Positions 30,355 through 60,065 of a stretch of DNA of 64,000 nt are shown here, piece by piece. Numbering within the stretch: the first letter of the stretch is position 1; the number at the start of each line of letters is the position of its first letter. The notes below the pieces were generated by a model. The model saw nothing but the letters and a program-made list of their open reading frames with translations. It had not been told where the DNA came from and did not search any database. The stretch comes from Caldicellulosiruptor bescii DSM 6725. Lineage in GTDB: Bacteria; Bacillota; Thermoanaerobacteria; Caldicellulosiruptorales; Caldicellulosiruptoraceae. The position numbers and the translations under genes were made by a program. The DNA is taken from NCBI RefSeq assembly GCF_000022325.1, contig NC_012034.1, forward strand, positions 1,630,501-1,694,500, given 5' to 3'.

Positions 30355-31675
30355 AGTTAAAATAAAATTGTGTCCACTGTATAATTAGTATTGAAATAAT
30401 CACCAAAGGGGGTTCACGATTATGGAGAAAAATGAAATTTTTGAGACCGCTAAAAATATGGCTATCGAACAAGTGCTAAATATGTATTGCTTCCTGTGAT
30501 GATCCTACTCGCCCAGCTCTAAAACAGCTAAAAGTAAAACTTGCTCGATTGCTTTATGTTATCGGAAAGAAAAGTAGCCCTTGCTAAAAATGACAATGAC
30601 AAAGGCAATGGTTTTTATTGAAGTAAAACTTTCAACACCTGCTATGTAGTTTGAAATTTCTGTCCCTCGCACACGCCCTTAGAATTTCCGACCTTCTATC
30701 CTCTTCTTTCCGCTACAAAAGAGTTGATAGCTTATCTACTTCCCTTCTTATGTCGCAAGTACATCAATGGTTATTCTTGAGCGTTCCCTTGTCCAGACTT
30801 TGAAAGCTTTGAATCTTCCATATTCCGAAAATGAAATACTAAAAATCAAAGAAGACCTTAAAAATGAGCTTCAATTATTCAAACAAAGAGAATTGCTAAC
30901 ATCTGCTTTTGCTCTCATCATCGACGGTTATTCAGAAGTGAAGTTAAGGACAATTCTAAAGTTAAACAAGCTACTTGCAATGCCAGCCTCCGTATTGACT
31001 TAGAAGGTAAAAAAGATATCTTTGGTATTCTGCCCTTTCTTCGGCAAAGAAAATAAGGCTGATTGGATGAAAGTTTTTGACGATTTAATTACAAGAGGTC
31101 TTAAAGAAGTTTTAATTGTCATAAGTGATGACTTTCCTGGTATTATAGATGTTGCCAAACTTGCTTATCCTCTTGCTGACCTTGAGCTTGCTTTTGTCCA
31201 CCTCCAATGAAATAGCAGAAAACATATGACAAAGGATAAAGCTTTCAGCTTTTAACAAGAGTTTAGACAGAGTTAGAATTTCTTCCTTCGATTTTGACGA
31301 AGCTGTACTGAAATTTAAAGAACTTTGCGATGGATACCTTTCAAAATATCCTCAATTTTATTGCTGCAATATCAGAAAAAGCAGAGTTTTATTCTGTTCA
31401 TATGAAATACCCTGAGGAATTAAGGAAGCAGATTCTTTGCTACAGACGCCGCCTTGCGTGTAAACAGCATGATTGAAAAGTAAAGAAGTAAATTCAGGTG
31501 GATACTTTTAAGGCTGTCAAAGTCTTAGAAATTAATATTTACTTAACAAGAAGAGAACTTACGCCGTACAAAATGGAAAAATGGAGCTTTTCAGTATTAG
31601 AAAATGCATCAATAACATAACATAACTTTACAACTTACGTTATAAATTGGTAACACAAAATTCTTGACAAGTCTC
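30355..31675 (+). mobile_element. Degenerate IS256/mutator-like element, copy 1
   Basis: This roughly 1.32-kb unit is repeated almost base for base at 55912-57228. Frames on the plus strand read MEKNEIFETAKNMAIEQ near the left end and FGKENKADWMKVFDDLI then VISDDFPGI further on, the latter typical of IS256-family transposases. Stops and frameshifts break the gene many times, so no functional transposase is encoded. The ends (AAAATTGTGTCCA on the left, and the complement of TTGTGTTACCA on the right) look like diverged inverted repeats. No target duplication was found. Confidence 0.75.
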
Positions 31676-31955
31676 GCTGCACAATCTGTTATATCATGCT
31701 GCTTTACACAATAGTATCTTTTCCTCATCTCTTCATCACACTTGATTTTTGATATATTTGCTTCTTTATTTTCTTATTTAGGCTGTTTTGTACTCAAGCT
31801 ATTTTTTCTGTAAACATCTTCTTGGAATTTCTATGCAAATTTTATCTTATTCATTTTCACTCTGTCAATCCCGTTTTTTTTAGCCCATTTTCAACTAAAT
31901 TTTGAGCTCAGAATATACTTTTCTTTAAATAGCTTAAATTTTCTTAAATTTTCTT
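31675..31955. repeat. Direct repeat copy A (C39 peptidase 5' stump plus upstream region)
   Basis: About 280 bp match 43999-44304 at most positions in the same orientation. On the minus strand it contains an ATG (31728) followed by RKRYYCVKQHDITDCAA, the beginning of a C39 peptidase domain. The frame runs into the end of the IS256-like element. A T8 run here corresponds to a T29 run in copy B. Confidence 0.8.
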
Positions 31956-32594
31956 GAGTTTTTAAAATGATAAGTTTGAAAATAGGAAAAATATATCGTT
32001 TGTTTAATAAAAGAAATAACCACATAGAGTAAATGTAGTAACAAAAGAAAAAGCCCTCTGTGTTACAATTTTGATTTTAGAGAAAACCTGCAACAAAACG
32101 TAAGAGAAGATAAAGAATAGAGAATAGAATAACCAAGGAAATGTAATCTATTTCAAATTTTCACCATGTGCTTAAAGACAAAAAGGATTTACTACCTTTA
32201 TTTTCCCAAAGTACTGACCAGAATTTAAATCTTCACTCCACACTATTGAACATCCTAAGTTCTTGTAAATCTTTCCCTTTAACCACCCCAACAATTTATT
32301 TTTTAGCCAAAAAACTGAAGGGTGAGCATTCAGAAAACTCACCCTCACTCCTGACAGATAAATATTATTACATTTTTCTGGTTTAAAATATTTGTACAAA
32401 AGCCCTCTCCTCGCATCAATTTTTATTTCCTTTTCCGTTAATTTTATTAAACTATTTTTCCCCTACTCTCTGCCCCATTTCAATAACTGCCGCTTTTTGT
32501 GTTCAGTTCATAATAACTAATAAATTCAACTTTTTAATAAATATTTATCTCCAATCTTTCACCTTAGCTTTAAGTTAATAGAAATCTGCTTTTT
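31956..32594. other. AT-rich non-coding stretch
   Basis: I see no convincing gene. The only structured element is the candidate terminator at 32314-32344. Short open frames here lack ribosome-binding sites and recognisable motifs. Confidence 0.5.
32314..32344 (-). terminator. Candidate terminator of the SLH protein/RiPP transcript
   Basis: On the minus strand GGGTGAG (32344-32338) and CTCACCC (32326-32320) enclose an 11-nt loop, and TTCAGTTTTTT follows. It lies 250 bp beyond the SLH gene stop. Confidence 0.55.
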
Positions 32595-35500
32595 TTATGG
32601 TTTCACCATACTCACAACCTTGCCATCGTACCCTAAAATGAGGTACACTCTCTGACCAACTTTGAAGGTGTCAGAAAGAAGCACAGATGGGTCAAAATCT
32701 TCGCTCACCTCATATGTTCTGTCCACAAGCTTTCCTGTTGTCAGGTCTACTGCACTTACAACAATTGACTTTGGTGTGAACCTTGTTGGCTGGTAGCTTT
32801 TGATGTAACATTCAACCCTGTCATCTACAACAAGTATGAACTTATTACCACCCCAGATGTCTGACACAGCATAGACAACATCGTTTTTCTGAATATAGCT
32901 GTAATCCACAACATCCCCATCTTTTATAACTTTGCTACTACCACTTATATCCAAATCACCTGCTTTTAAGGTCAGATATGTCTGCTCATTTGCAAGGTAT
33001 GGTTTGCTGTATACCGGGTCAAATATTACACAGTAGTCATACCCGCTCTTTTGTGTTGATATTCCAAACACAAGCGATGTTGCCCTTTGCATCTTCTGAA
33101 GCACCTGTGAGTAGTCAATCTTTGTGCCGCTGTAGTAGTAGATTATGTTTTGTGGCAAGGTCATCTCAACCTGTGTTCCGCCTTTGTCAACTGTTACTTT
33201 GCTTCCAAGAGCATACACAACTGTCATGCTATCTGTTGAGTTGAATTTTTTGTAGACAAGAGTTATTTGATTATCTGAATCAACATAAAGCCCATATTTT
33301 GCGCCAAGCTCCAAGTTTATATTCTGGTTTGACGGCAGGGTCAAAATGCCTTTGTCTGTTAGAACTTCATTGTCTGCAAGACCTTTTGTTACCTTGCTTG
33401 TTCCCATTACAATAACTTCCATGTATGTCCCATACTCATCATAATATGGGTCCTGGATGATTGCATACTCATACGAATTTCCTGCCTGGTTGTAGCCAAA
33501 ATAGATTTTCTGACCTGTTTTGAGAATACTCTTTAGCTGGTCATAGCTGAGCTTATTTCCATTGTAATAGTACGTAGGTTTTTGAGGAAGAGGCAGCGCA
33601 TTCTCAGTGCTGCTTTTTTTGAGCTTCACGGATGTAGCGCTCACAACTGCTGTAATCTCTGCTGACTCCACGTTGTTGAGCTTTTTCACAACCTTGGTGA
33701 TTGTATCATTTTTGATGTACACACCATACTTTGCACCAACAGAAAGCTTTCCTGCAGATCTTCCCACAACATATATGCCCTTGTCTGTTAGAACCTCGTT
33801 TGTTGCAAGCTTGCTTGACGAAATGCTATCTGCCATCACTATGACCTCTGTGTATGTGCCATACTCAAAAGAGTATGGGTCCTGAATTACAACATATTCG
33901 TATGTCTTGCCGTCCTTTGCAAAACCAAAATAGATTTTCTGACCCACTTTTAGCACATTCTTGAGCTCAAGGTAGTTTGTTTTTGCACCATTGTAATAAT
34001 AAACCGGCTTTTGAGGTAGAATAATGTTCTCCTGCCCCTGAGTACCTTTTAGCTTGACGTTAGTATCACCTACAACATCTGTTACCTCATATTGCTGAGT
34101 ATTATTCAACTTCCTTACAACAAGCGTTATCTTATCGTCTTTAACATAAAGTCCGTACTTTGCACCTATTTCAAGTTTTGTCTCGGCAGATGGAAGGTAA
34201 AAAATACCTTTGTCAGTCACAACCTGGTTGTTCTCAAGGCTTGAGTTTAAAAGTGCATCCTGCAAAACTATTGCCTCAATATAGTTTCCATACTGTGTAC
34301 CATATGGGTCTTGTATAACATATGCCATAACCTTGCCTGTGTCAGGGTCTTTTGATACATAGAGTATCTGGTCTTCTTTTAAAATGTTCGGTAAATTTTC
34401 ATAGCTCTGTTTTGTTCCCTGATAGTAATATAAAGGTTTGCTTGTCAGCTGAATCCTTTGTGTTTTGCCGTTTTGAGCAGCATCAAGTGTGTAATCATCT
34501 ATATTTGTAATTGTAAACTTTTCTGATACCCACACTTTTTGCAAAGCTGCAGTGATTGTATCATCTTTTATATACACTCCATACTTTGCTCCAATTTCAA
34601 GGTTTTCAGGTTTTATTGAAGATGCAACAAAGTATATTCCCTTGTCTGTCTGAACCTGGTTTGCATCCAGTGCTGATGATGTTTTTGGAGTTGCCAAAAT
34701 CAAAACCTCATCGTAGTTTCCATAAATCTCTTGTGCATATATGTCGGAAATTACAACAAAGTCCATTTTGCTCCTATCTTCAGAATATATAAAGCTTATT
34801 TTCTGGTTCGGTTTTAGCACATTTTCTACTGCATCATAGCTCTGCTTTGAGCCGTTGTAATAGTATGTTGCCGAAGATGGCAAAGTTATTGATTTTGTCT
34901 TTCCACTTTCCTTGTAATATACAGTCCTGCTGCTTACCTTTGTGCTGACAATCTGGAAAGAATCAGCTTCAGTGCCAAACACTTTCGTGATTTTATTGGT
35001 ATCAACCTGAAGCATGTACTTTTTCCCAACTTCAAGTTGCGTCTTTGTTGCATTCACAAGCACTCTGCTGTCTGTCAAAACCTCATTTGGAAGAAGCTTT
35101 GATGATGTCTTGCCAGTATCAAGCACAACGTATGATTTGTAAAGCCCAACATATTCAGAAAATTTTGTATTTGTATTTTTTACATTTGTTTCAAGCAGCC
35201 TATATAGCATAATGGCCAAATCATATTTTGTAACTTTTTTCTTAGCCGACACATTTAAGCCTTTCAACAGTCCAAGTTCAGAAGCCTTTCTGATATAGTT
35301 ATAAGGCCAGATACCCTCTATATCTGAATCAGTATAATTTAGCATTTTTACCATTGCAGTTACTGCATGAGAAAATGTAATTTCTTCAAATGGTCTAAAT
35401 TTCCCATCTATTGAAATATTCAAATACTTATTTTTAACGGCCCAATTCACATAACCACAAAGTTCTGTATTAGATTTTACATCAATACAGTATGAAAATG

Positions 35501-35762
35501 GTTGTTGAACTAAAGTTTTTTCATCAACATTTGAAATTTTTGCAATAGCCCTAACAAACTCCTGACGAGTCACGTAACTGTTTGGCTTGAGATAATCTTT
35601 TGATGATACAACACCTATCTTAGACAACTTTTCCACTGCAAGCTTGTACATATCAATCGATAAATATTCTTTTGTTTGTGCACTCACAGTTTTCATTATT
35701 AAAAGTTGAGTAATAACACAGATAACCAAAAATAAAAATCTGTGTCTATTTTTATATTTCAT
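32595..35762 (-). CDS. SLH-domain surface protein with about five internal repeats
   Basis: This 1055-residue exported protein has a signal peptide (about residues 8-28; FLFLVICVITQLLIM), an SLH region (about 35-195) containing YVTRQEFVRAIAK and PYNYIRKASELGLLKG, and then a long array of units of about 130 residues. Each unit carries NEVLTDKGIY-, LEIGAKYGLYVKDD-, LPQKPVYYYNGAK- and YVVIQDPYSFEYGTY-like blocks; the YYYxG block occurs five times. SLH domains attach proteins to cell-wall polymers. The gene is 40 bp downstream of the LolD-like ATPase and last in the peptide operon. No enzymatic domain is recognised. Confidence 0.85.
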   Translation of the reverse strand: MKYKNRHRFLFLVICVITQLLIMKTVSAQTKEYLSIDMYKLAVEKLSKIGVVSSKDYLKPNSYVTRQEFVRAIAKISNVDEKTLVQQPFSYCIDVKSNTELCGYVNWAVKNKYLNISIDGKFRPFEEITFSHAVTAMVKMLNYTDSDIEGIWPYNYIRKASELGLLKGLNVSAKKKVTKYDLAIMLYRLLETNVKNTNTKFSEYVGLYKSYVVLDTGKTSSKLLPNEVLTDSRVLVNATKTQLEVGKKYMLQVDTNKITKVFGTEADSFQIVSTKVSSRTVYYKESGKTKSITLPSSATYYYNGSKQSYDAVENVLKPNQKISFIYSEDRSKMDFVVISDIYAQEIYGNYDEVLILATPKTSSALDANQVQTDKGIYFVASSIKPENLEIGAKYGVYIKDDTITAALQKVWVSEKFTITNIDDYTLDAAQNGKTQRIQLTSKPLYYYQGTKQSYENLPNILKEDQILYVSKDPDTGKVMAYVIQDPYGTQYGNYIEAIVLQDALLNSSLENNQVVTDKGIFYLPSAETKLEIGAKYGLYVKDDKITLVVRKLNNTQQYEVTDVVGDTNVKLKGTQGQENIILPQKPVYYYNGAKTNYLELKNVLKVGQKIYFGFAKDGKTYEYVVIQDPYSFEYGTYTEVIVMADSISSSKLATNEVLTDKGIYVVGRSAGKLSVGAKYGVYIKNDTITKVVKKLNNVESAEITAVVSATSVKLKKSSTENALPLPQKPTYYYNGNKLSYDQLKSILKTGQKIYFGYNQAGNSYEYAIIQDPYYDEYGTYMEVIVMGTSKVTKGLADNEVLTDKGILTLPSNQNINLELGAKYGLYVDSDNQITLVYKKFNSTDSMTVVYALGSKVTVDKGGTQVEMTLPQNIIYYYSGTKIDYSQVLQKMQRATSLVFGISTQKSGYDYCVIFDPVYSKPYLANEQTYLTLKAGDLDISGSSKVIKDGDVVDYSYIQKNDVVYAVSDIWGGNKFILVVDDRVECYIKSYQPTRFTPKSIVVSAVDLTTGKLVDRTYEVSEDFDPSVLLSDTFKVGQRVYLILGYDGKVVSMVKP

Positions 35763-35802
35763 TTTCTTATATCACCCCTTGCAAACAATAAATCTAAAAA
35801 AT

Positions 35803-36480
35803 TTAAGCAATTTTTCTATCTTCTATTATTTTCCCATCATGAATTCTTACAATCCTTTTTGCCTGAGAGGCAATGTGATTGTCATGTGTAATTAACACCA
35901 CAGTACATCCTTGGTTATGAAGTTGTTTGAAAATTTGCATAATTTCTTCGCCAGATTTTGAATCTAAGTTTCCCGTCGGTTCATCAGCTAAAATTATTGA
36001 AGGATTTGTCACAATTGCTCTTGCAATGGCAACCCTCTGTTGCTGCCCACCAGATAGCTGTCGAGGTCTGTGATTTATCCTGTCAGAAAGCCCTACGCGT
36101 TCAAGTGCTTCTTTTGCAATCTTGTGTCTTTTTGATGCCGACATCCCTTTGTATATTAAAGGCAGTTCAACATTCTCAAGAGCAGTTAACTGTGGAATTA
36201 AATTGAACTGCTGAAATACAAAGCCTATCTTGCTGTTTCGAATCTCTGCAAGCTGATTGTCTGAAAGGCAACTAACTTCTTTTCCATCTAAGATGTATTT
36301 TCCTGATGTTGGTACGTCAAGGCATCCCATTATATTCATCAATGTTGACTTTCCTGAACCAGAAGGTCCAATAATCGCAACAAACTCATGTGCATCAATT
36401 TTAAGATTTACTCCATTTAAAGCATAAACATCTATTTCGCCCACTTTGTATATTTTAAAGATATCATTAAGTTCTATCAT
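35803..36480 (-). CDS. ABC transporter ATPase, MacB/LolD type
   Basis: This 225-residue nucleotide-binding protein has Walker [10 protein letters not shown], signature [14 protein letters not shown], Walker [14 protein letters not shown] and H-loop THDN. The subfamily pairs with FtsX-like permeases, and such a permease is encoded 28 bp upstream, followed by a HlyD-type adaptor. The set resembles YknYZX of Bacillus subtilis, which protects against the SDP toxin. I prefer the ATG at 36480 (MIELNDIF); earlier ATG and GTG codons at 36489 and 36492 crowd the AAAAGG ribosome-binding site. Confidence 0.92.
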
Positions 36481-36508
36481 ATATATCATCACCTTTTGTC
36501 AAAAGTTA

Positions 36509-37717
36509 CTATTCATATCGTAATGCAATACTTGGTTCAAGGCGTGCTGCCCTTTCGGCTGGAGCCCAGCCAGAAAATACACCAACAAAGCCCGATACAC
36601 CCAGAGCAAGTAAGATCCAAAATGTTGAAATTGTGGGTTGAACATCGTTCATTAGATTAGGAATAACAGCATATACAACTACTATTCCTAACACTATGCC
36701 CATTATACCACCTAAAATAGAAATTATGGAAGATTCAACTAAAAATTGAAAACGAATATCTCTTATTTTAGCTCCAACAGCTTTTCGTATACCTATCTCT
36801 TTTGTCCTCTCAGTAACAGATACTAAGATGATATTTGTAATTCCTATTCCACTGACAATAAGAGATACCGTAGCAACTCCTCCAAGTAGCGCACTGAGTA
36901 AGTACGAAACTGAAATAACACCTTGCAAAATTTCTCCTCCGTCTATAAAAGAGTAATCATCTTTTTCAAATCCTTTTTGAGTCAAAAATTCTTCTATAAT
37001 TTTTTGAACCTCCTTATTTTTTTCTGAACTTACACATTTTATAAAAAATTGTTGTGATGATATCTCTGAACTAAATAAACTTTCGCCCACGTTGAAAGGT
37101 ACTAAAATACTAATATCAGAAGCACTTCCAATAGATATATTTGCCAATCTCTGTTTCTTTTTTACTACGCCTACAACTTCAAATTCATTTCCTTTAATCC
37201 ATAACTTCTTACCTAAAACCTGCTGCCCCTTCCCAAAAAGTTTATCCTTTTGATCATCAAACACTACTGCAACTTTGTTATTTCTATCTTCGTCTAAATA
37301 ACTTAAAAACCTTCCCTCAACAAGTTGAAGACTTTCTGTGATATAATAATTAGGTTTTACCAACAGAATTTCGCATCTTTTTTTGTTGTTATCCGAACTC
37401 AAGACCTCAAACGAGAGACTTTTCTTAGGTGTAATTGTCAATACTAAATCTTTGTGTTTCCACAAATACTCTGACAATTCATAATAATCGTTTTGATGTT
37501 CTGGCAGATAAGAGAGAAAAAGAACCAGACTATCTACACCGCTCTCTTTAACTTGTTTTGCAAAACTACTGCTAACTGTTTGGACAAGCCCAACAGCTGC
37601 AATTATAGAACTTGTCCCTATAACCACTCCAAGTACACTTAGAAAGGTTCGAACCCTGTTTTCATAAAGTGATTTTATTGCCATCTTTAAAATTTCATAA
37701 ACTTTAATAAACTGCAT
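36509..37717 (-). CDS. MacB-like ABC transporter permease (FtsX family)
   Basis: The 402-residue protein has one N-terminal membrane segment (VRTFLSVLGVVIGTSSII at about 21-38), a large extracytoplasmic MacB_PCD-like domain (about 45-275) and three C-terminal segments with VTERTKEIGIRKAVGAK, the FtsX/MacB coupling motif. This mechanotransmission type does not pump across the membrane by itself but acts on periplasmic or extracellular substrates. It works with the ATPase and adaptor next to it. A role in exporting or resisting the peptide encoded upstream is inference. Confidence 0.9.
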   Translation of the reverse strand: MQFIKVYEILKMAIKSLYENRVRTFLSVLGVVIGTSSIIAAVGLVQTVSSSFAKQVKESGVDSLVLFLSYLPEHQNDYYELSEYLWKHKDLVLTITPKKSLSFEVLSSDNNKKRCEILLVKPNYYITESLQLVEGRFLSYLDEDRNNKVAVVFDDQKDKLFGKGQQVLGKKLWIKGNEFEVVGVVKKKQRLANISIGSASDISILVPFNVGESLFSSEISSQQFFIKCVSSEKNKEVQKIIEEFLTQKGFEKDDYSFIDGGEILQGVISVSYLLSALLGGVATVSLIVSGIGITNIILVSVTERTKEIGIRKAVGAKIRDIRFQFLVESSIISILGGIMGIVLGIVVVYAVIPNLMNDVQPTISTFWILLALGVSGFVGVFSGWAPAERAARLEPSIALRYE

Positions 37718-37736
37718 ATATATTCCCTCTCTGTTT

Positions 37737-39365
37737 TTAAGGTGTAGTTTTGTAGGTCTGAGGAAGTACTACTTCCTCACCTTCTTTTAAACCTTCTAAA
37801 ATTTCTACGTGATGCTCATCACTAATACCAAGTTTAACTTCTCTTTTTTCACAGCCTGCATAGTAACTTTCTTTTGTGCCAAGTTCATCAGAGATTTTAT
37901 CGTCTTCTTTAATTTTTTTCAAGCTCTCATTATTAAATTTTTTTACATATACAAAGTACTTATCTCCTTCTTTCCTTACAGCTTCAATGGGTACACAAAT
38001 TGCATTCTTTTTTCTTATAACTTCTATTTCTGCTGTGGCATGTGTCCCTCTCTTGATATTTTCATTGTAAAATCTTATTTTTATGTTAAACCATGAAACA
38101 TTCTGAGATAACTCTTCATCTAATGGTCTTGGATTAATTGATTCCACAATCCCGTCTATCTCACTTTCAGGTATATAGCTACTATGAGGTGCAAAATTTA
38201 TCTTCACTCTATCACCTTTTTTTACTTTGTAAACATCATACTCCGATATCTTAGATTCAAATATTAAGTCATTTGTGCTCCATACAGAACAAATACTATC
38301 ACCCATATTAATTAGCTTACCTTCAGAAATATTGAGATTGCTAATCACTCCATTTATGGGTGACATTACCTTACAATTATTTATCTCTTTTTTCAAGGTC
38401 TCTATTGCCTCTTTAGTTTCGTCAATCTGATCTTTTAGTCCATCTATCTGCTCTTTAATATCTTGGTCAAAGAATTCAATTAAAATATCCCCTTTTTTTA
38501 TCCTGTCATATTGTTTTACAAATATTTTCTTTATCCTTCCTTCAACCTCGGATTTTATAACTATCTCGTCCATTTTTAAAATACCTTCATTAACACTTCT
38601 TATTTCTTGATAAGGATTTTTTGATGTTATAACACAAAAGGCCTTTGCTCCAGATGGCAAACTTCTTCCTTCATTGTCAACACAAATTTTAACATCAAAT
38701 ACCGATTGCCCATTGTCGTTTACGTAAAATAAAGAACTCTTTGCATCAACAAATCCTTCTGTCTCTATATCATATTCAGTAAGAACAACTTTTAATCTTT
38801 GGCCAACACGAATACTATTAAATAGCCACGAAGGAAACGCTACTGTTAAAAATAAAGATTTATTATTTACAATTTTGAAAAGATTAGCTCCCAAAGAAAC
38901 ACTCTCTCCCTCGGTCACATATATTTCTTGCACCTGTCCATCAAAAGTAGAGCTAAATTTGTATTTTTCTAATTTATCTTGAAACTTTTTAATTTCATTT
39001 GAGAGTTTTTCCAATTCCTTTTCTTTCTTTTTGAGTTCAGATACCTTATTAGAAGCATCTATATAAGCTAACAGCTTTCCCTTTTTGACGTAATCTCCTT
39101 CACGAACATACACCTTACGAACCATCCCAGAAACTAAACTATAAATTGCTTTTTCCTCTGCTCTGACAATACCTCTTAGTACAATCTTCTCTTTAATTGG
39201 CATTCTAATAACTTTTACTGTCTTTTGATTCGAAACTGTACTTTTTTCAGCAAATTTACTAAGATATCTAGTAAATAAATACACACTGCTCAGAATGAGA
39301 ATTATAATTACAAAATATCCAACTATGAAAAAACTCCTTTTGTTTTTCTTCACTTTTTTATTCAC
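37737..39365 (-). CDS. HlyD/MacA-type adaptor with duplicated lipoyl-like domains
   Basis: This 542-residue membrane-fusion protein has one N-terminal membrane anchor (about residues 13-32). Instead of one pair it shows two sets of lipoyl-like half motifs: SGMVRKVYVREGDYVKKGKL and FDGQVQEIYVTEGESVSLG in the first half, then VEGRIKKIFVKQYDRIKKGD and INGVISNLNISEGKLINMG in the second, each pair separated by a short coiled coil. The C-terminal barrel follows. It is long compared with YknX or MacA (about 370-380). In a Gram-positive cell such adaptors extend the exporter through the wall. Confidence 0.88.
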   Translation of the reverse strand: MNKKVKKNKRSFFIVGYFVIIILILSSVYLFTRYLSKFAEKSTVSNQKTVKVIRMPIKEKIVLRGIVRAEEKAIYSLVSGMVRKVYVREGDYVKKGKLLAYIDASNKVSELKKKEKELEKLSNEIKKFQDKLEKYKFSSTFDGQVQEIYVTEGESVSLGANLFKIVNNKSLFLTVAFPSWLFNSIRVGQRLKVVLTEYDIETEGFVDAKSSLFYVNDNGQSVFDVKICVDNEGRSLPSGAKAFCVITSKNPYQEIRSVNEGILKMDEIVIKSEVEGRIKKIFVKQYDRIKKGDILIEFFDQDIKEQIDGLKDQIDETKEAIETLKKEINNCKVMSPINGVISNLNISEGKLINMGDSICSVWSTNDLIFESKISEYDVYKVKKGDRVKINFAPHSSYIPESEIDGIVESINPRPLDEELSQNVSWFNIKIRFYNENIKRGTHATAEIEVIRKKNAICVPIEAVRKEGDKYFVYVKKFNNESLKKIKEDDKISDELGTKESYYAGCEKREVKLGISDEHHVEILEGLKEGEEVVLPQTYKTTP

Positions 39366-39387
39366 CTACTTCCATAAATAACAAGTT

Positions 39388-39852
39388 TTATTTGCTCTTT
39401 TTATCTCTCCTTATTAACTTTCCTACATTATATCCAATAAATGTCATCAAGGCAATTATCAATGATAATATCATAAGTGTGGATATAATACTACCAACAT
39501 CACCATTATCCAGTGAAATTTCTATTCCTTTCTTTTTAGCTTCTAAAAGTAACCTTTCTTTGACATCATCTGTTAATATAAGAGGTTTATAAAAGTAGCT
39601 AATAATATCCATTATAAGTTCTGTGGTAAGACTGATAAAGATATTAAACGCCAAAATATTGGTAAATTTACCTCTACTGAATATACTATTTAGTAAACTC
39701 ATAAATGCTAAAATTCCAAATGCGGAAAGTTCAGCAATAAGAATTCCTCCAACCGATATTGATTTTTTATTAAATACACACCACGTTAGAATAATAACTT
39801 GATATAGAATTACTAACCCAGCAAAGATGTAGATTATTATTTTTCTCATCAC
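39388..39852 (-). CDS. Small membrane protein of the peptide operon, possible immunity or transport accessory
   Basis: The 154-residue protein has four probable membrane segments (about residues 5-25, 33-55, 65-88 and 124-145), with a charged stretch between the last two (DDVKERLLLEAKKKG). No family signature is recognised. It stands between the exporter ABC gene and the adaptor gene, 22 bp from the latter. By position it could be an immunity protein or play the part of YknW in the Bacillus YknWXYZ complex. I cannot decide from sequence alone. Confidence 0.6.
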   Translation of the reverse strand: MMRKIIIYIFAGLVILYQVIILTWCVFNKKSISVGGILIAELSAFGILAFMSLLNSIFSRGKFTNILAFNIFISLTTELIMDIISYFYKPLILTDDVKERLLLEAKKKGIEISLDNGDVGSIISTLMILSLIIALMTFIGYNVGKLIRRDKKSK

Positions 39853-39889
39853 ATTCTCTCCTCTCCGTATTCAAATGAGTAAAAATACA

Positions 39890-41581
39890 TTAAAACGTAA
39901 AATTCATTTCAAACAGTCTGCCATTGTTTAAAGTAAAAATCTTATCTGCATATTCTAATATCTTTTTTCTATGACTTACAATAATTATAATTCTATTCTC
40001 TTTGAGCTCTTTCAATATCTCACATAAAATTCTCTCATTTTCCTCATCAAGCGAAGAAGTTGGTTCATCAAAAAGCAAAATTTTTGCCTCTTTTAATAAC
40101 TCCCTTGCAAGGAGTATTCTTTGCTTCTCACCTCCAGAAAAATTAATTTTTTCATCATACATAGTGTCATAACCATAAGGAAGCTTAATAATTTTTTTAT
40201 TTATTTTTAAAATTTCACAAATATTTTCTATATCATTGTCCACTTTATTCAGATTTGATAATTTTATATTCTCTCTTATAGATAAGTTGTAAATCAATTC
40301 TGCTTCTTGAGGTATATAACTTACATATCTCCAAAATTCTCTAAAATCAATTTTGGAAATATTCTTCCCGCAAATTGTAATACTTCCTCTCTCAGGTTTA
40401 TACAAGCCACACAGTAACTTCAGAAAAGTTGATTTGCCGCACCCAGACTCACCGATTATTCCAATTATTGAATTTGGTTCTATTATCAAGTTTATTCCTT
40501 GAAGTACATAAGAGTCAGAATTTTCATATTTAAACCACAAATCCTCTATAACAATTTTAAAATCCAATTCTCCAAAATGCAACATTTCAGAAGTATTTTC
40601 TATTTTAATATTGTTGGTATTATTTAATAAAAATTCATTTAGCCTTTCAATTAAAGGAAATAATCTTCTAAATTCAATTCCACTATCAAACAGCTCACTA
40701 CTTGCAGCAATAAGATTCTGAAAATACATACTTAAAGCTACGATCATTCCCACAGTTGAATGCCCATTTATAATTACTATTGAGCCCCCAACATATATAA
40801 TGATAATAGCCACTATAGCAAACAGAGCAGTATAGGTAGATAACAACATTATTTTAGCAAAAATCTGAACTGATAAATCTCTCAATTTACTGTTTATTTC
40901 ATTAAATTTGTTAAATATAAAATTCTGGGCATTGTTTAAATTAATCGAAACTATATTTCTAATTACACTTGGTACAAAAGTATTCATTCTATCTATCAAA
41001 AGCTGAGACTCTTTTTGCAATATTCCTATTTGATGTCCTTTCTTAAGTATGAAAACAGCAAATAAAAACAAAATCATCGCTAAAACAACGGTCAAAAATG
41101 GTGATAACCAAAGCATTATAGAAAAGGAAAATATAATTATAATTATATTTTTCGTAAAATTGTTGATTAAATCTTGAATAAATTCTCCAATCTCTTCTGT
41201 CTCATTCAAAATACGTGTTAATATAGTTCCCGGAGGACTTTTTTCGAAAACAGTGATAGGAGAATAAAGAACTTTTTTAAAAAATTCATTTCTTAACTCC
41301 TGCACTATTCTTTCCTTAAATCGTATTATCATCAAGGAACTTAAGTATGAGGTCACTGGTTGCAAAAGCCACACCAAAGAAAACATGATTAACTGTTTCA
41401 TTAATTTTTGTAAAGATATTCTTGTTATCAAATCTTCAACTAATTGTTTTGAAATAATCGGAGCAACATTTATTAATATTGTATAAATTTGTAGAATGAG
41501 AAATCCAATTAAACCTATCCTAACATGCGGTTTAACAAAAGGCATTAATGATTTTATTGACTTTAACTTCTCCATTCCCAA
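39890..41581 (-). CDS. ABC exporter with fused membrane and ATPase domains
   Basis: This 563-residue half-transporter has six membrane helices (about residues 15-310) followed by the ATPase domain, with GESGCGKST (Walker A), FSGGEKQRILLARELL (signature) and ILLFDEPTSSLDEENE (Walker B). It is of the type that exports peptides or lipids. It carries no N-terminal C39 peptidase, unlike many bacteriocin exporters, so a leader peptide would need another protease; a CPBP protease is encoded immediately upstream. It most likely exports the modified peptide of this operon, which is inference from context. Confidence 0.9.
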   Translation of the reverse strand: MGMEKLKSIKSLMPFVKPHVRIGLIGFLILQIYTILINVAPIISKQLVEDLITRISLQKLMKQLIMFSLVWLLQPVTSYLSSLMIIRFKERIVQELRNEFFKKVLYSPITVFEKSPPGTILTRILNETEEIGEFIQDLINNFTKNIIIIIFSFSIMLWLSPFLTVVLAMILFLFAVFILKKGHQIGILQKESQLLIDRMNTFVPSVIRNIVSINLNNAQNFIFNKFNEINSKLRDLSVQIFAKIMLLSTYTALFAIVAIIIIYVGGSIVIINGHSTVGMIVALSMYFQNLIAASSELFDSGIEFRRLFPLIERLNEFLLNNTNNIKIENTSEMLHFGELDFKIVIEDLWFKYENSDSYVLQGINLIIEPNSIIGIIGESGCGKSTFLKLLCGLYKPERGSITICGKNISKIDFREFWRYVSYIPQEAELIYNLSIRENIKLSNLNKVDNDIENICEILKINKKIIKLPYGYDTMYDEKINFSGGEKQRILLARELLKEAKILLFDEPTSSLDEENERILCEILKELKENRIIIIVSHRKKILEYADKIFTLNNGRLFEMNFTF

Positions 41582-41622
41582 AAAATACCCCCGTTTGATA
41601 TCACTATAGATTAGAGCAACTT

Positions 41623-42333
41623 TTATAATCCTAGTAATTCTACTCCCACATTATAAGTCCAATGCAAAATAATACATGAATGAATGCTTTTTGTTTTATA
41701 TGATATAAAAGACAAAATCAAACCAATGGGAAAACGTACTAAAGTATTAATCGTCATATCTCCACCACAGTGGAGAATAAATCCAAATACTAACCCATCA
41801 AGGACAATGCTTGTAAAAGGATTAAACACACCTAACAATTCATTCAATATAATACCCCTTGTTAACAATTCTTCGGTTAAACTTACAAAAAAATTGTGTG
41901 TAATTACTTCTCTAAATGTATTCATGTCTGTGTTTTTACTCGCTAAGAAAAACACAAAGCTGGCCACTAATAGAGATACAATCAATGTAAAATAGTACCA
42001 TTTATTATTTTTAATTGTTAAATTCAGTTCATTTATCTTTTTCTTTTTTATCAACACCATAAATAATAAGGGAAATAATCCAAAGCAAATTGTGAATGGT
42101 ATTGAGTATTGCAATAATAGCTCCTTTAAAGAAGAATATTCTACATAAGACACATAAGATTTGTCCATTATTGCGCAATAAAGCAAAAGCCAAGCCAAAT
42201 ACACTATAGTAGGTACAAAAATTAGTGCGCTTATTTCTAAATATAAATATAAGATTTTTTCCTTTTTATTTTTAAGATTACAAACCATGTTCGTTATTAT
42301 ATTTTTTACAATATTATTTTTAACTTTTTTCAT
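41623..42333 (-). CDS. CPBP-family intramembrane metalloprotease
   Basis: This 236-residue membrane protein belongs to the CPBP/Abi (Rce1-like) group. Motif 1 is EELLTRGIILNEL (EExxxR), motif 2 is FGFILHCGGD (FxxxH), and motif 3 is the HWTYNVGVELL region near the C-terminus, with His and Asn. At least six hydrophobic helices are visible. Such proteases occur in bacteriocin operons (SkkI/Abi), giving maturation or self-immunity. It abuts the radical SAM gene with no gap, so translation is probably coupled. Confidence 0.88.
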   Translation of the reverse strand: MKKVKNNIVKNIITNMVCNLKNKKEKILYLYLEISALIFVPTIVYLAWLLLYCAIMDKSYVSYVEYSSLKELLLQYSIPFTICFGLFPLLFMVLIKKKKINELNLTIKNNKWYYFTLIVSLLVASFVFFLASKNTDMNTFREVITHNFFVSLTEELLTRGIILNELLGVFNPFTSIVLDGLVFGFILHCGGDMTINTLVRFPIGLILSFISYKTKSIHSCIILHWTYNVGVELLGL

Positions 42334-43623
42334 TTACTCCTCTCTTTCCTTTCGATTATATTCTCTTATCAAATTAATGATTGTTTCATAAAAATTATAA
42401 TAAAGAGGGCAGTATGGGTCTTTCTTTTTCAGAGTAGCGTTTAAATAATAAGCGTTTGCTCTACATGCACCACCACACAAATACTTGAATTTACAGATAT
42501 TACATCCATCAATCATATCAACGCTTATATTTTTCCAAATTAGTCTTTTTGAACTGCAAAGAATTTCACCCACTGTCATATCTTTTATATTTCCTAATTT
42601 AAATTCCTCAACGTGAAGCATGTGACACGGATAAACATCCCCATTAGCTGCTATACTTAGCATTTTCCTTCCAGCTTCACAACTTAATCGAGTTTCAAAG
42701 CTAAAGTTTTTTATATTTGTATTATCTATGTTTTCATTCCATTTTATACTTGATAGAATGTCTTCCCACTTTATACTTGACAGAATATCTTCACTAAACA
42801 TAAAATCCTTACATTCTTCTCTATTTTGATTATTGCAAGTCAAAATACTATAGCTTAAGGGTATACCCATTTCTTCACTTAGTTTTTGATATTTGTCCAT
42901 TAAATTTACATTCTTTCTATGTAAAGTTGCTATCATGCTTACATTAATACCTGCTTCCTTTAACAAAGCTATGTTGTTCATAACAATTTTATGTATCCCA
43001 GTGGGTCTTATAAAAGTTATTCCTTCCTCATACCCATCAATCGAGACAGCAACATCATCTACATATTCTCGGATAGTATGTAACAAATTATGCGGTAAAT
43101 TTGTCCCATTGGTTATTAATACTATATAATTTATATCCAGTATTTCTTTCAAATATTTAATAAACTCATCCAAATCATTCCTTAATGTTGGCTCGCCTCC
43201 CGAAATAATAATTTTATCCAAACCGTATGTCTTTAGTTGTTTTACAGCTTCTAAAAAATATTCCATTGATAAGTCTTGACTTTCATCATTTCTATTTTGA
43301 TCATATGAATAACAGCCCTTACAGTATAAATTGCATTTGTTAGTATAATGTAAATATATACTTTCTATTTCTATGTCATTCATACAAATTGACTCCTTGA
43401 TGTCACAAATTATATCACATTCTTTCAAAATACTAAGCCACTCTTTCTTTTTGTCATCTAATTCATCTTCATTATTTAGCTTACCAGCCAAAATGCTCTT
43501 AACAAAACTTAATTCTTTTTCATTTAAAGCAATTATAGAACCAGTTCTATAGTTTCCAATAAAAGGTATTTCGTCTATAGCGAACATAATAACATCTTTA
43601 TTGATTTTGTAAGATTTAATCAT
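42334..43623 (-). CDS. Radical SAM/SPASM peptide maturase
   Basis: The 429-residue enzyme has the radical SAM motif CNLYCKGC (C97, C101, C104), SGGEPTLRND, and a C-terminal SPASM domain with CEAGRKMLSIAANGDVYPCH, LGNIKDM, and the Cys group CNICKFKYLCGGAC then CPLY, which hold two extra Fe-S clusters. The N-terminal 95 or so residues could carry the peptide-recognition element. I place the start at ATG 43623, with AGGAGG eight bases upstream; the longer frame to 43701 runs through the attenuator hairpin. EDILSSIKW occurs twice in tandem (27-bp duplication). It probably modifies the small peptide encoded just upstream. Confidence 0.92.
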   Translation of the reverse strand: MIKSYKINKDVIMFAIDEIPFIGNYRTGSIIALNEKELSFVKSILAGKLNNEDELDDKKKEWLSILKECDIICDIKESICMNDIEIESIYLHYTNKCNLYCKGCYSYDQNRNDESQDLSMEYFLEAVKQLKTYGLDKIIISGGEPTLRNDLDEFIKYLKEILDINYIVLITNGTNLPHNLLHTIREYVDDVAVSIDGYEEGITFIRPTGIHKIVMNNIALLKEAGINVSMIATLHRKNVNLMDKYQKLSEEMGIPLSYSILTCNNQNREECKDFMFSEDILSSIKWEDILSSIKWNENIDNTNIKNFSFETRLSCEAGRKMLSIAANGDVYPCHMLHVEEFKLGNIKDMTVGEILCSSKRLIWKNISVDMIDGCNICKFKYLCGGACRANAYYLNATLKKKDPYCPLYYNFYETIINLIREYNRKEREE

Positions 43624-43655
43624 ATAGATATCCTCCTCTTTCAAAAGTCTTAAAT

Positions 43656-43683
43656 AAGCCCCTCTCACTGTAGAGAGGGGCTT
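43656..43683 (-). terminator. Attenuator-like hairpin between peptide gene and radical SAM gene
   Basis: AAGCCCCTCTC (43656-43666) and GAGAGGGGCTT (43673-43683) form a perfect 11-bp stem with a 6-nt loop; the downstream tract on the minus strand is only moderately T-rich. A partial terminator here would give much more peptide mRNA than enzyme mRNA, as is common in RiPP operons. Confidence 0.8.
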
Positions 43684-43704
43684 GTCCTTGGAAAGTATCA
43701 ATTC

Positions 43705-43839
43705 TTAGATCTTAATAGTAGTAGTAATGGTCTTGTTGCCTCTTTTTTCAGTCTCTGTCCTTGTATATCCTATGTCGAATTTAAAAATCTTAATATTAAT
43801 ACTTGAACAACCCACCTTTGTGTTCTTTTTTGCCAACAT
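43705..43839 (-). CDS. Putative RiPP precursor peptide (44 residues)
   Basis: The peptide starts MLAKKNTKVGCSSINIKIF and ends GNKTITTTIKI. It has one Cys (C11), many Thr, Lys and Ile, and alternating polar/hydrophobic residues. Support is strong for so short a gene: AAAGGAGGTGA sits an optimal distance before the ATG, a promoter with a palindrome is in front, a hairpin is behind, and a radical SAM/SPASM gene follows on the same strand. It is not a Cys-rich ranthipeptide or SCIFF precursor, having only one Cys. I do not recognise its class. The likely core is the Thr/Ile-rich C-terminus, but the cleavage site cannot be read. Confidence 0.75.
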   Translation of the reverse strand: MLAKKNTKVGCSSINIKIFKFDIGYTRTETEKRGNKTITTTIKI

Positions 43840-43879
43840 CTTTCTTCACCTCCTTTCTACTCGAATCTATATAGTCTTT

Positions 43880-43908
43880 TGCATAAACGCTCATATGAGC
43901 GTTATCAA
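43880..43908 (-). promoter_or_regulatory. Predicted promoter with palindromic operator before the precursor gene
   Basis: On the minus strand TTGATA (43903-43908) and TATGCA (43880-43885) are 17 bp apart. A perfect 18-bp palindrome, AACGCTCATATGAGCGTT (43886-43903), fills that spacer. A dyad between -35 and -10 is a classic place for a regulator. The -10 is weak, consistent with regulated transcription. No regulator gene is adjacent. Confidence 0.6.
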
Positions 43909-43998
43909 ACTTTTTAAAACTTTCAAAAAGATCTCACTTCCTCCTCATACATAGTGTAAAATTTATCTATATTGTAAGCAAATTGTTGCCAAACTTGC

Positions 43999-44304
<306 letters not shown>

Positions 44305-44598
44305 TTATAACAAAGGTAAATTTGCAAATTGTGGCTATTAAATATAGTTAAAATTCATTTTAAGGTATACAGTAGAAAAACCTATTTTTAATTACTTCTT
44401 CTCTACCATTTTTTCTTTCGCCTATATATATAGCAAATAGATTTTAAATCTAAATAAAAATCATGTAAAATATTTGTTAAATTTAAATTTGGAACAGGAT
44501 GTTAAAATAAAATTGTTCTGGTAAAAGGTTTGACAAAAAGGACTTGACATAACAAAAAGGGCTGAGCTTTTTTCTCTTGCAAGCCAGCCCTTTTGACA
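44305..44598. other. AT-rich intergenic stretch with a possible solo IS end
   Basis: No gene is seen. GTTAAAATAAAATTGT at 44501-44516 is identical to the left end of the two IS256-like copies, but nothing else of the element follows. The terminator of the neighbouring operon lies at 44555-44594. Confidence 0.4.
44555..44594 (-). terminator. Terminator of the FtsX-like permease operon
   Basis: AAAAGGGCTG and CAGCCCTTTT (44585-44594 and 44555-44564, given for the minus strand) form a 10-bp stem ending in a T-rich tract just behind the permease stop codon. Confidence 0.8.
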
Positions 44599-46836
44599 TC
44601 AATCAAGCTGCCCTTTTAATATCTCAACCGGCATTACCCTTGCTATTTTCTGTCTTGCTAAAAACCTTGAAATTAGAAAGACTAAAAGAAGTATTACAAA
44701 TGTAGACAATACACTCTGCACGCTCAAATCAAGGCTCATTGCAAAATCTATATCTTTTGTCACTGTGCTCATAAGCCCATCCATTGTAATTTTAGATAGT
44801 GGAATTCCTGCAACAAATCCTATAAAAAACGAAATGTAGTTAAAACCGAGAATCATTTTAAAAATACTTCTTTCACTGTGCCCCAGCATTTTTAAAATTC
44901 CTATATTTTTCTTGTTTTCATTTAAAGTCAAAGTAGACAGAACATACACAATCAAAAGAGCAAGCACAGCAGCAATTAGCGCCATAACACCTATAGTCTT
45001 TGATAAATCGCCAGCAGATGCCTTTATTGTATTTACAAGTTCAGATTTTGTGTAACTTTCAAAAATTAAGCTCTGTGGAATTTCCAACTTTTCTTTTGAG
45101 AATATTCCAATATACTCTCCACTGCTATATCCAAAAAGCTTATTAAAACTTTCAAGTTCCATATACCCATTGTTCCCAACAAGAAGGTCGGCAACTTTTT
45201 TCACTTTTAAAGTATATTCTTTGCCTGTAAATTTGTTTTTTAGTTTGACCTTATCTCCTTCGCCAATACCAAGTTTGCTTGCAAGAGGTTTGGTTATGAT
45301 AAGTTCACTTGACACAGAGATTTCTTTTCCATTTTCATCATACAGCTTTATCATATCTGAGTTACTTTTAATACCGTAAATTGTAATACTCAGTTTTGTC
45401 CCTTCAATGTCAAAAGATAAAAGGTTGTATGGCTCAGATGTAGCTTTTAACTTAATCTCAGGATGGGCAGAAGAAGAATTCAAAGAATAAAGATAATTGT
45501 ACTTAAAATTTTTTTCATATGTTCTTTCTATTGCAGTTATGATCGAATCTTTTGCAGTCATACCATACATCATAAGGATTGTTGAAAAGATTATCCCAAC
45601 TGCCAAAATTAGTTCCCTGCCAATATGACGCCAGCCATATTTTAGCATAATCCTTGTTCCAAACTCAAATCTGTCAAAAAACTTTATTGAAGGAAGCTTG
45701 CCAAATTTTAATTCATCAACGCCGTGAAGCATCTGAACAATTGTGAGGTTGAAAAAGTTCTTGATTGCAAGGTAACCTGAAAGAAATATAAATATGGCTG
45801 GGAGAAGCATCGCAACAAATATGTGCTGCCATGGCAAAATTGACTTTATCTTTGGTAATGTAAAATATGACCTGTAAAACTGTGCAAAAGGAGATGCTTC
45901 AATAGCCCCAAGTACAACACCGAAGATGGAACCAAAAAGCCAAATATAAAGTGGAAACCTCATGAAGACTTTTAGTACATCTTTTTGTGTATATCCCATT
46001 GAATAGATTGTACCAATTTCAGCATGTATAGTATTTATTACCCTTCGCATGACAATAAAGAGTATAAAAGATGATACAAGAATTATAAAAAGACTGAGTG
46101 GCAGAGTTAAGTTCTTTGCATTTTTAACTTTTATCTCTGTATACATTATTCGCGGATTCTGGTCTCTTTGTACAAATTTCAAAAGCACCCAGTTGCTATT
46201 TAAAAACTCTTTAAACTTGTCAATGTTTTCAACTTTGCCTTTGAAACAATAATAATGAACAGGAAAAATGTTGAAAAGTCTTCTCATCTCATCTTCATTC
46301 ATAAGAGCAAAACCAAAATGCTCAGGATCAGGAAGTAAGTCTTGGTCATTTTTAATGATGTAAATATAATCTGGAAGATAAGCAATGCCTGAAACCTTGA
46401 AATTTTCTCTACCGACAGTCAACACTGACCCTATTTTGAGCTTGTGTTTTTTGTAAAAAGCAGGGTCTATGAGTATTTCGCCTTTTGATGGCATTCTGCC
46501 TTTTTCGATATATGGTTTGTTTATTTCTTTTGGCACTGAAAAAACTCTCAGCGTAAAATGGTCATTTTGGACATCAGTAAATAGCCTTTGTTCTACATTA
46601 ATTTTAAATTTTTCTTGTAGAAGTTTTATATCAACCTCTTTTGTAGTAATAAAATTCCCATCTTCCTGATTGTATTTGTTTTTGAACATTTCATAGTTAT
46701 AATCTATATCCTGCATTGACACAGCAAAAAGTGTATATGTCATTGTGGCAATAGCAACAAGCAGCATTATAGAAAAGAACTGTAAAAACTCTCTCTTGAT
46801 TACTCGCAGGGGAATTTTTTTGATGACCATCACCAT
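44599..46836 (-). CDS. FtsX-like ABC transporter permease (large, two FtsX units)
   Basis: This 745-residue permease has an N-terminal membrane helix (about residues 17-38), an extracytoplasmic domain, an FtsX block with IGTIYSMGYTQKDVLKVFMR, a second extracytoplasmic domain and a C-terminal FtsX block with NENKKNIGILKMLGHSERSIF. The layout resembles eight- or ten-helix permeases of peptide-sensing, resistance or lipoprotein-handling systems. It overlaps its ATPase gene by 7 bp. A TetR-family repressor with matching operators stands upstream. The substrate is unknown. Confidence 0.88.
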   Translation of the reverse strand: MVMVIKKIPLRVIKREFLQFFSIMLLVAIATMTYTLFAVSMQDIDYNYEMFKNKYNQEDGNFITTKEVDIKLLQEKFKINVEQRLFTDVQNDHFTLRVFSVPKEINKPYIEKGRMPSKGEILIDPAFYKKHKLKIGSVLTVGRENFKVSGIAYLPDYIYIIKNDQDLLPDPEHFGFALMNEDEMRRLFNIFPVHYYCFKGKVENIDKFKEFLNSNWVLLKFVQRDQNPRIMYTEIKVKNAKNLTLPLSLFIILVSSFILFIVMRRVINTIHAEIGTIYSMGYTQKDVLKVFMRFPLYIWLFGSIFGVVLGAIEASPFAQFYRSYFTLPKIKSILPWQHIFVAMLLPAIFIFLSGYLAIKNFFNLTIVQMLHGVDELKFGKLPSIKFFDRFEFGTRIMLKYGWRHIGRELILAVGIIFSTILMMYGMTAKDSIITAIERTYEKNFKYNYLYSLNSSSAHPEIKLKATSEPYNLLSFDIEGTKLSITIYGIKSNSDMIKLYDENGKEISVSSELIITKPLASKLGIGEGDKVKLKNKFTGKEYTLKVKKVADLLVGNNGYMELESFNKLFGYSSGEYIGIFSKEKLEIPQSLIFESYTKSELVNTIKASAGDLSKTIGVMALIAAVLALLIVYVLSTLTLNENKKNIGILKMLGHSERSIFKMILGFNYISFFIGFVAGIPLSKITMDGLMSTVTKDIDFAMSLDLSVQSVLSTFVILLLVFLISRFLARQKIARVMPVEILKGQLD

Positions 46837-59807: not shown

Positions 59808-59913
59808 TTGAATACTTCTCCTCTCTAAGTATTAGATTTGTTATATTTGGCTTTTATTATAACGTATTACTTAAATTAAAATTTGTCGAATCCTGTCGAA
59901 AATCACTATATTT

Positions 59914-60062
59914 TCACCTCTCCTCACTCCCCCCACTCATCAGCCATTCTTTTCTTTGTTCATTGTTCAAAACTTTCTTGCAGCTTTCCCAGTCGACTTT
60001 TTTGATATGTTCCCTATACTTTCCATATTTCATCACGTTCAGGCTTCTCTTAAAAGTTTTTT
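59914..60062 (-). pseudogene. Duplicated tail of the SNF2 helicase gene
   Basis: Right behind the DUF262 stop codon a frame reads KYREHIKKVDWESCKKVL and NNEQRKEWL before a TGA at 59914. The C-terminus of the helicase at 61816-61930 reads KYREHVEKVDWESCKKVL and DNEQRKEWL. The two are plainly homologous in DNA and protein. No start and ATPase part are present, so this is a leftover of a second helicase copy or of a tandem duplication. A tiny gene from GTG or ATG near 60030 is possible but less likely. Confidence 0.65.
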
Positions 60063-60065
60063 GGC

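Follow-up and report, generated by a model that had tools for sequence, protein, structure and literature searches.

A candidate radical SAM/SPASM peptide cassette in Caldicellulosiruptor bescii and its family of short putative precursors

Described systems and the C. bescii cluster

In the epipeptide operon epeXEPAB (yydFGHIJ) of Bacillus subtilis, genes for a precursor, a radical S-adenosylmethionine (SAM) enzyme, a membrane protease and an ABC transporter follow one another (PMC7026026; this and the other sources are cited for the part of their text that was available), and a thuricin-CD-like cluster of Caldicellulosiruptor kristjanssonii (Calkr_0220-0226) likewise combines small peptides with radical SAM enzymes, a peptidase and an ABC transporter (PMC3132745). 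In the same genus, lanthipeptide and circularin-like loci have been described from Caldicellulosiruptor bescii, next to the thuricin-like locus of C. kristjanssonii (PMC4289311). Here we analyse a stretch of 64,000 nucleotides of the C. bescii DSM 6725 genome (NC_012034.1, positions 1,630,501 to 1,694,500; hereafter the window), in which a gene for a 44-residue peptide is followed by genes for a radical SAM/SPASM enzyme, a CPBP intramembrane protease and an ABC exporter. To judge from sequence comparison, the core of this cluster is probably a biosynthetic cassette for a ribosomally synthesised and post-translationally modified peptide (RiPP), with a precursor family that is absent from NCBIfam and Pfam. 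No description of the cluster was found in the open-licence literature, motif strings included, a coverage that leaves subscription journals mostly outside.

A first-pass annotation of the stretch had proposed nine consecutive minus-strand genes with small gaps, and nine open reading frames (ORFs) were indeed found at 32595-43839, all on the minus strand, with intergenic gaps of 0-81 nt when the radical SAM start is taken as the ATG at 43623. The run opens with the precursor gene (43705..43839), which encodes 44 residues with one Cys (C11) and whose ATG is preceded by the near-consensus Shine-Dalgarno sequence AAAGGAGGTGA, in keeping with the strong ribosome-binding site claimed for it; an orthologue with 86% identity occupies the same site in a second genome of the genus (G011). 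The maturase gene (42334..43623, 429 residues) probably begins at ATG 43623, which is preceded by AGAGGAGG and at which the orthologues start, rather than at TTG 43701. Further along the same strand lie genes for an Rce1-like CPBP protease, the putative leader peptidase (41623..42333), for an MsbA-type fused ABC exporter with Pfam ABC_membrane and ABC_tran domains, the putative peptide exporter (39890..41581), and for a four-helix membrane protein, TM4, a candidate immunity or accessory protein (39388..39852). The earlier domain calls for radical SAM/SPASM, CPBP, ABC, HlyD, MacB/FtsX and SLH agree with our Pfam and NCBIfam scans.

With the epipeptide operon the locus shares the order of genes, as the first-pass annotation had noticed, and a pair of conserved Ile/Val sites, which lie 8-10 residues apart in the cluster peptides and 8 apart in the epipeptide. 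The parallel does not extend to the protease, which is of the CPBP family (PF02517) where EpeP is an M50 protease (PMC10885120), nor to the conserved precursor Cys and the fused exporter of the cluster, and no epipeptide family stands among the 25 of 87 NCBIfam matches listed for the maturase. The thuricin-CD-like cluster differs by its two radical SAM genes and by its peptides, which contain GG and repeated Cys motifs (PMC3132745). Bacteriocin exporters of the C39 type differ by their N-terminal peptidase: the window exporter has 19 Pfam matches, and none of them is to a C39 domain. Among the NCBIfam matches listed, the nearest neighbours of the maturase are the streptococcal RaS-RiPP enzymes WgkB (113.9 bits) and StsB (104.2 bits), but their cut-offs, 650 and 625, lie far above these scores. 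Of 16 RaS-RiPP subfamily names, none obviously spells the cluster motif, though a name does not by itself exclude a match (PMC13361665). One member of the family described below does lie on a Streptococcus plasmid, where the surrounding stretch has LytTR and GHKL genes and no gene named Rgg, with one HTH protein at its edge. By sequence, the nearest solved structure is 5wgg (E 2.7e-24), likewise a radical SAM enzyme with a SPASM domain, which we take to be the SCIFF/ranthipeptide synthase CteB. SCIFF precursors hold six Cys in forty-five residues against one or two in the cluster peptides, and the maturase scores 62.5 bits on the NCBIfam SCIFF maturase model TIGR03974, whose cut-off is 425. 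The Cys-rich thioether families are ruled out by the same one or two Cys, as had been held from the window peptide.

The putative precursor family and its probable maturase

Radical SAM orthologues were sought in samples of 12 genomes of the genus and 37 of the class, and a wider sample held 398 genomes of the phylum. They occur in 3/12 genus genomes (G006, G011 and the window's own, G000, which has 2,931,662 bases in three contigs, the window contig having 2,919,718) and, at E<=1e-30, in 5/37 class genomes, adding G020 and G024, the window's own counted in both cases. Short ORFs led by Shine-Dalgarno sequences lie upstream of the radical SAM gene in 5/5; the window, G020 and G024 have a single such ORF, G006 has three and G011 has four. 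The Streptococcus salivarius cluster described below has such a peptide too, so the scenario raised beforehand, in which the radical SAM homologues never sit by a similar peptide, is contradicted. That a peptide profile matches the five class genomes is in itself circular, since it was built from those same peptides.

Ten peptides from these genomes were aligned, and the S. salivarius peptide brings the set to 11, which represent six subfamilies and not eleven independent events. The peptides are 34-44 residues long, with a short Lys-rich N-terminal part. M1, K8, C11 and G24 (window numbering) are invariant in the ten-peptide alignment and remain so when the S. salivarius peptide is added, and the pattern K-x-[GS]-C-x-x-[IV]-[GN] with a later [IV]-G, read by eye, fits 11/11. 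The [IV] at Cys+3 and the later [IV]-G, by eye 8-10 residues apart, are retained even in the three peptides that lack a second Cys, which is present in 8/11. The first-pass description of a precursor with one Cys is therefore right for the window 44-mer, its G011 copy and the S. salivarius peptide and does not hold for the other 8/10 aligned peptides, which have two.

When each subfamily was left out of the profile in turn, 5/6 were recovered at 21-36 bits, with 0/5000 shuffles as good. The S. salivarius peptide, which was found after the profile had been built and lies outside it, scored 30.7 bits, where the best of 2000 shuffles reached 9.8. The profile was also run on the 10,382 ORFs of 20-80 residues in the fetched DNA, a set that keeps overlapping loci and omits five duplicate ones; its matches at E<=1e-6 are all family peptides apart from a relic in the class genome G015, and the next match has an E of 0.006. 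Across the 37 class genomes the profile finds, beyond its five source genomes, G015 at 2.9e-7 and nine more solely at E 0.1-0.9; across the 398 phylum genomes it finds G000, G006 and two weak, stop-containing matches (G239, G268). No other family peptide was found in the window genome at E<=1. No Pfam or NCBIfam family exceeds its cut-off for the window peptide, five other peptides or the S. salivarius peptide, and the best NCBIfam match of any scanned peptide is at chance level (16.4 bits, cut-off 176). Co-occurrence and scans together support what had been proposed for the window, a RiPP-type precursor/maturase system that has no match in the curated families.

The maturase matches PF04055 at 84.3 bits and the SPASM family PF13186 at 40.9 bits. 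Its CX3CX2C motif (C97/C101/C104) and seven further Cys, in what we take to be SPASM spacing, are conserved without exception in four orthologues, of which two have almost the same sequence, and so are two Cys outside the SPASM set, C263 and C271. A PADLOC match to the viperin model pVip (60.8 bits) spans the shared core only, and a viperin identity was rejected. The Pfam scan gave no PqqD match, and the single-sequence structure model (mean pLDDT 36) is too poor to judge an N-terminal RiPP recognition element (RRE). The CPBP protein matches PF02517 at 53.8 bits (cut-off 22.4) and carries TEELLTRG, FGFILH and HWTYN, which fit the protease motifs EExxxR, FxxxH and HxxxN. TM4 has no family match in Pfam or NCBIfam, and its single-sequence model is weak (mean pLDDT 59, five helices).

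Relatives of the window CPBP protease (36-45%) and of TM4 (25-43%) are present in all four other class loci, and the fused exporters of G006 and G011 share 48-50% with that of the window. The core thus appears to comprise the precursor, the radical SAM/SPASM enzyme, the CPBP protease and usually the fused ABC exporter, with TM4 accompanying it in the class. The TM4 gene of G020 and G024 lies between peptide and radical SAM gene, together in G020 with a 96-residue ORF whose G024 version is cut short. The G011 radical SAM gene is split by two tandem copies of a 317-residue ORF, probably a transposase (L027 7465-9573), and in the G015 relic (L065 4110-9520) the peptide frame is broken and the CPBP ORF shortened, and the stretch yielded no radical SAM ORF.

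Outside the class sample, the radical SAM enzyme found matches in 165 plasmid records, of which five were examined. One of these, S. salivarius NZ_CP018188.1 (34.3% identity, 3e-40), has the family peptide as the short ORF 4583-4693 of L077, followed by a CPBP gene, ISSag10 with lnu(C), the C-terminal part of the radical SAM gene and a fused ABC exporter, and further by an ABC gene, a gene for a membrane-type hypothetical protein, LytTR and GHKL. ISSag10 and lnu(C), at L077 6366-7918, interrupt the cassette, and this insertion together with the radical SAM fragment indicates that the cluster is damaged there. Searched against the 398 phylum genomes, the fragment matches at 1e-36 G000 and G006 only, and besides these two no maturase appears at 1e-40; at 1e-26 there are radical SAM matches in 21/398, G000 and G006 included, the other 19 at 25-31% identity; of these 19, seven had their N-termini inspected. 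A scan of genome contigs for relatives gave one distant match (28%). Viral spread was considered and discarded, two viral searches being empty and another giving two distant radical SAM proteins (22-23%). The other four plasmid loci (Clostridioides difficile, Treponema, Agathobacter, Paraclostridium sordellii) were set aside, as their gene content is different, and so are the two peptides read in them, which contain more Cys. The Clostridioides and Paraclostridium plasmids (L130 5929-11287 and L133 3252-9979) carry RiPP-like operons with two or three radical SAM genes, a 52-59-residue peptide, an S8 protease and an ABC exporter.

Several observations weigh against the assignment of the window cluster to a RiPP cassette of this family. 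Outside the genus the fused exporter shows superfamily-level likeness, 23-27% (23% in G020), and none was seen in the fetched G024 stretch. Cassettes are damaged at three loci (G011 with its radical SAM gene split, G015 decayed, S. salivarius interrupted) and the G024 ORFs that match the G020 ABC genes and the 96-residue ORF are shorter, from which it follows that the system is often lost. The NCBIfam matches listed for the maturase (25 of 87) all fall under their own cut-offs, so that as far as these go homology gives no chemistry. An hhalign comparison of the maturase N-termini with an RRE gave 19.9 against 17.6 for the best of 60 column shuffles in one set and 14.5 against 17.3 in the other. 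The window 44-mer is the weakest member of the family: its subfamily was not recovered when held out (5.5 bits, matched by 62/5000 shuffles), it lacks the second Cys, and it differs from the G011 copy by 12 bases in eight codons (six nonsynonymous, two silent, none in codons 1-11), changes that show no purifying selection on the predicted core. Because the held-out profile does not recover it, its membership rests on position, on the N-terminus MLAKKNTK/MLLAKKKTK common to it and the family, on a DNA match over its Shine-Dalgarno sequence and start to a G006 precursor (41 bases, 85%, E 1.5e-4) and on synteny with G011.

Proposed chemistry and role of the product

The strong ribosome-binding site and the hairpin after the precursor gene could cause the peptide to be made in excess over the enzymes. 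This 11-bp hairpin (43656..43683, minus strand), which had been predicted between the two genes and is present by folding, falls in the 81-nt intergenic gap if the maturase starts at ATG 43623. Its centroid is at -21.4 kcal/mol, the 73-nt stretch as a whole is equalled in folding by 2/200 of its shuffles, and the hairpin is the sole minus-strand terminator-like site listed within 31500-44700, where the six such sites on both strands are no excess over the 4.1 expected; the T-run after it is weak. Strong hairpins 3' of the precursor also occur in G006, G020 and G015, with three distinct sequences across the four loci, and S. salivarius has a weak one at the corresponding place (z -1.9; 6/200 shuffles equal it). 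RNA families were rejected, as all seven Rfam matches within 31000-45500 lie under the gathering score.

In the mechanism that we propose, the radical SAM/SPASM enzyme would modify the part of the core peptide that contains the conserved Cys and both conserved Ile/Val sites, the CPBP membrane protease would remove the leader, the C39-less ABC exporter would secrete the product, and TM4, perhaps with HlyD-MacB-LolD, would protect the producer, the expected end product being a secreted antibacterial or signalling peptide. The precursor Cys, kept in 11/11, is compatible with a Cys-to-carbon thioether of the sactipeptide/ranthipeptide kind, and the auxiliary cluster of CteB has an open site for a substrate Cys (PMC8326336); that the product is a Cys thioether, with the sulphur linked to a nearby carbon, has in our estimate slightly less than an even chance. 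More tentatively, and with a good deal less confidence, we put forward a new RiPP class whose hallmark would be a unit [C/x]-x-x-[IV]-G that occurs repeatedly. A single SPASM enzyme would make a four-residue thioether loop from Cys to the branched Ile/Val at Cys+3, the second Ile/Val-Gly site, in many peptides without a Cys, would undergo a different radical reaction, for example epimerisation, and CPBP would be the leader peptidase. Neither CPBP nor CAAX occurs in the available part of a review of leader proteases (PMC10885120), and if the proposal is true, the RiPP repertoire would gain a leader protease of the CPBP family and a chemistry centred on Ile/Val.

The maturase might instead be an epimerase that converts the two conserved Ile/Val to D-forms and makes no thioether, the product being membrane-active and the Cys having another role, a reading that we regard as unlikely. 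The retention of both Ile/Val sites in 11/11 peptides, the three without a second Cys among them, suits an epimerase, but so constant a precursor Cys would be superfluous for one, and the nearest solved relative is presumably a thioether-type enzyme. The spacing of these sites comes close to that of the epimerised residues of the epipeptide, Val36 and Ile44, the gene layout is similar, and the extra invariant C263 and C271 are of interest in that epimerases of this kind use a critical Cys of their own (PMC8326336); set against this are the protease family, CPBP here and M50 there (PMC10885120), and the lack of any epipeptide-named model among the NCBIfam matches listed. It is about as doubtful that the product is a signal and not an antibacterial. 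LytTR and GHKL-kinase genes adjoin the S. salivarius locus, but around the window cassette no two-component pair was noticed by eye in the ORF list, no domain search having been aimed at it, and three genomes (G003, G007, G008) retain TM4 without maker genes, as retained immunity would.

As a probable RiPP cassette with its own precursor family, the cluster offers a testable precursor/maturase set from thermophiles, enzymes of which are often robust in vitro. The peptides have a clear motif and vary naturally in the number of Cys (one or two) and in spacing (8-10), and there is a streptococcal relative. Its relatives are found in other thermophiles and on a plasmid of a mouth streptococcus.

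Borders, site history and neighbouring features

Beyond TM4 the minus-strand run continues with genes for an HlyD/MacA-type adaptor (37737..39365), a MacB/FtsX-type permease (36509..37717), a LolD/MacB-type ATPase (35803..36492) and an SLH surface protein of 1055 residues (32595..35762). The first-pass annotation had treated all nine genes as one unit, and that they form a single dedicated system, SLH included, with HlyD-MacB-LolD for self-protection, now appears improbable. The genes do share one strand with no second terminator-like site listed on it, TM4-HlyD-MacB-LolD-SLH adjoins the cassette in G006 and G011 too, the HlyD (~41%) and MacB (~56%) proteins diverge from the G011 type along with the cassette while LolD and SLH stay at 92-93%, and G024 has LolD-like (48%) and weakly MacB-like (19%) ORFs ~3 kb downstream of its CPBP gene. 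However, SLH relatives occur in 12/12 genus genomes, and LolD-like, MacB-like and HlyD-like genes adjoin them in the nine surroundings fetched, 7/9 of which (one a second copy in G000) have no radical SAM gene of this family in the fetched stretch; moreover, L028 and L029 have no HlyD or SLH match (the G020 contig ending soon after the exporter), and neither is annotated in the S. salivarius stretch, whose gene table is incomplete. HlyD-MacB-LolD-SLH, as these comparisons indicate, belongs to genus-wide modules that also occur without the radical SAM gene, and the SLH protein is not RiPP-specific.

TM4 is found in 9/37 class genomes at E<=1e-5, with one more at 4e-4, and G003, G007 and G008 have both TM4 and HlyD-MacB-LolD-SLH in the absence of a radical SAM orthologue. 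TM4 kept without the maker genes may reflect retained immunity, which makes it a candidate immunity protein.

Window and G011 are 95% identical over 48338-43674 and ~66% thereafter, with the junction lying within the hairpin that follows the 44-mer. With LolD and SLH again highly alike, identity is high on both sides and low between, indicating that two strains carry, at a single site, different versions of the radical SAM-to-MacB block, which varies as a cassette. It is nonetheless quite improbable that the 44-mer is a leftover of such an exchange, the present maturase having no true precursor or using another substrate: although the 44-mer fails the held-out profile, precedes in G011 a G006-type maturase with three other precursors, and stands by an identity drop which implies that the site was cut and joined, the hairpin after it is intact in the window and broken in G011, so that 44-mer and window maturase look like the older pair, its Shine-Dalgarno sequence, start and first 11 codons are identical in the two genomes, and the profile gives no second family peptide in the window genome.

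The region is flanked by two truncated copies of a gene for an ABC exporter with a C39 peptidase (44313-44105 and 31983-31658, minus strand). They comprise its upstream part and initial codons, and whole or partial copies of this element occur at many places across the genus. A promoter-like site, TTGACA-18-TAAAAT (44163..44192, minus strand), lies in the stretch shared with the upstream part of these C39 exporter genes. Just upstream of the precursor Shine-Dalgarno sequence, a dispersed stretch (43972-43871, minus strand) with the palindrome AACGCTCATATGAGCGTT is found elsewhere at places adjoining a transposase gene, and is probably the end of an insertion sequence. Elsewhere in the window, PADLOC points to a DNA methyltransferase, type II or orphan (51062-51898, minus strand), and to a likely defence cluster of an OLD/Gabija-like nuclease, a HEC-05-like protein and an SNF2/PLD helicase (57849-63991, minus strand).

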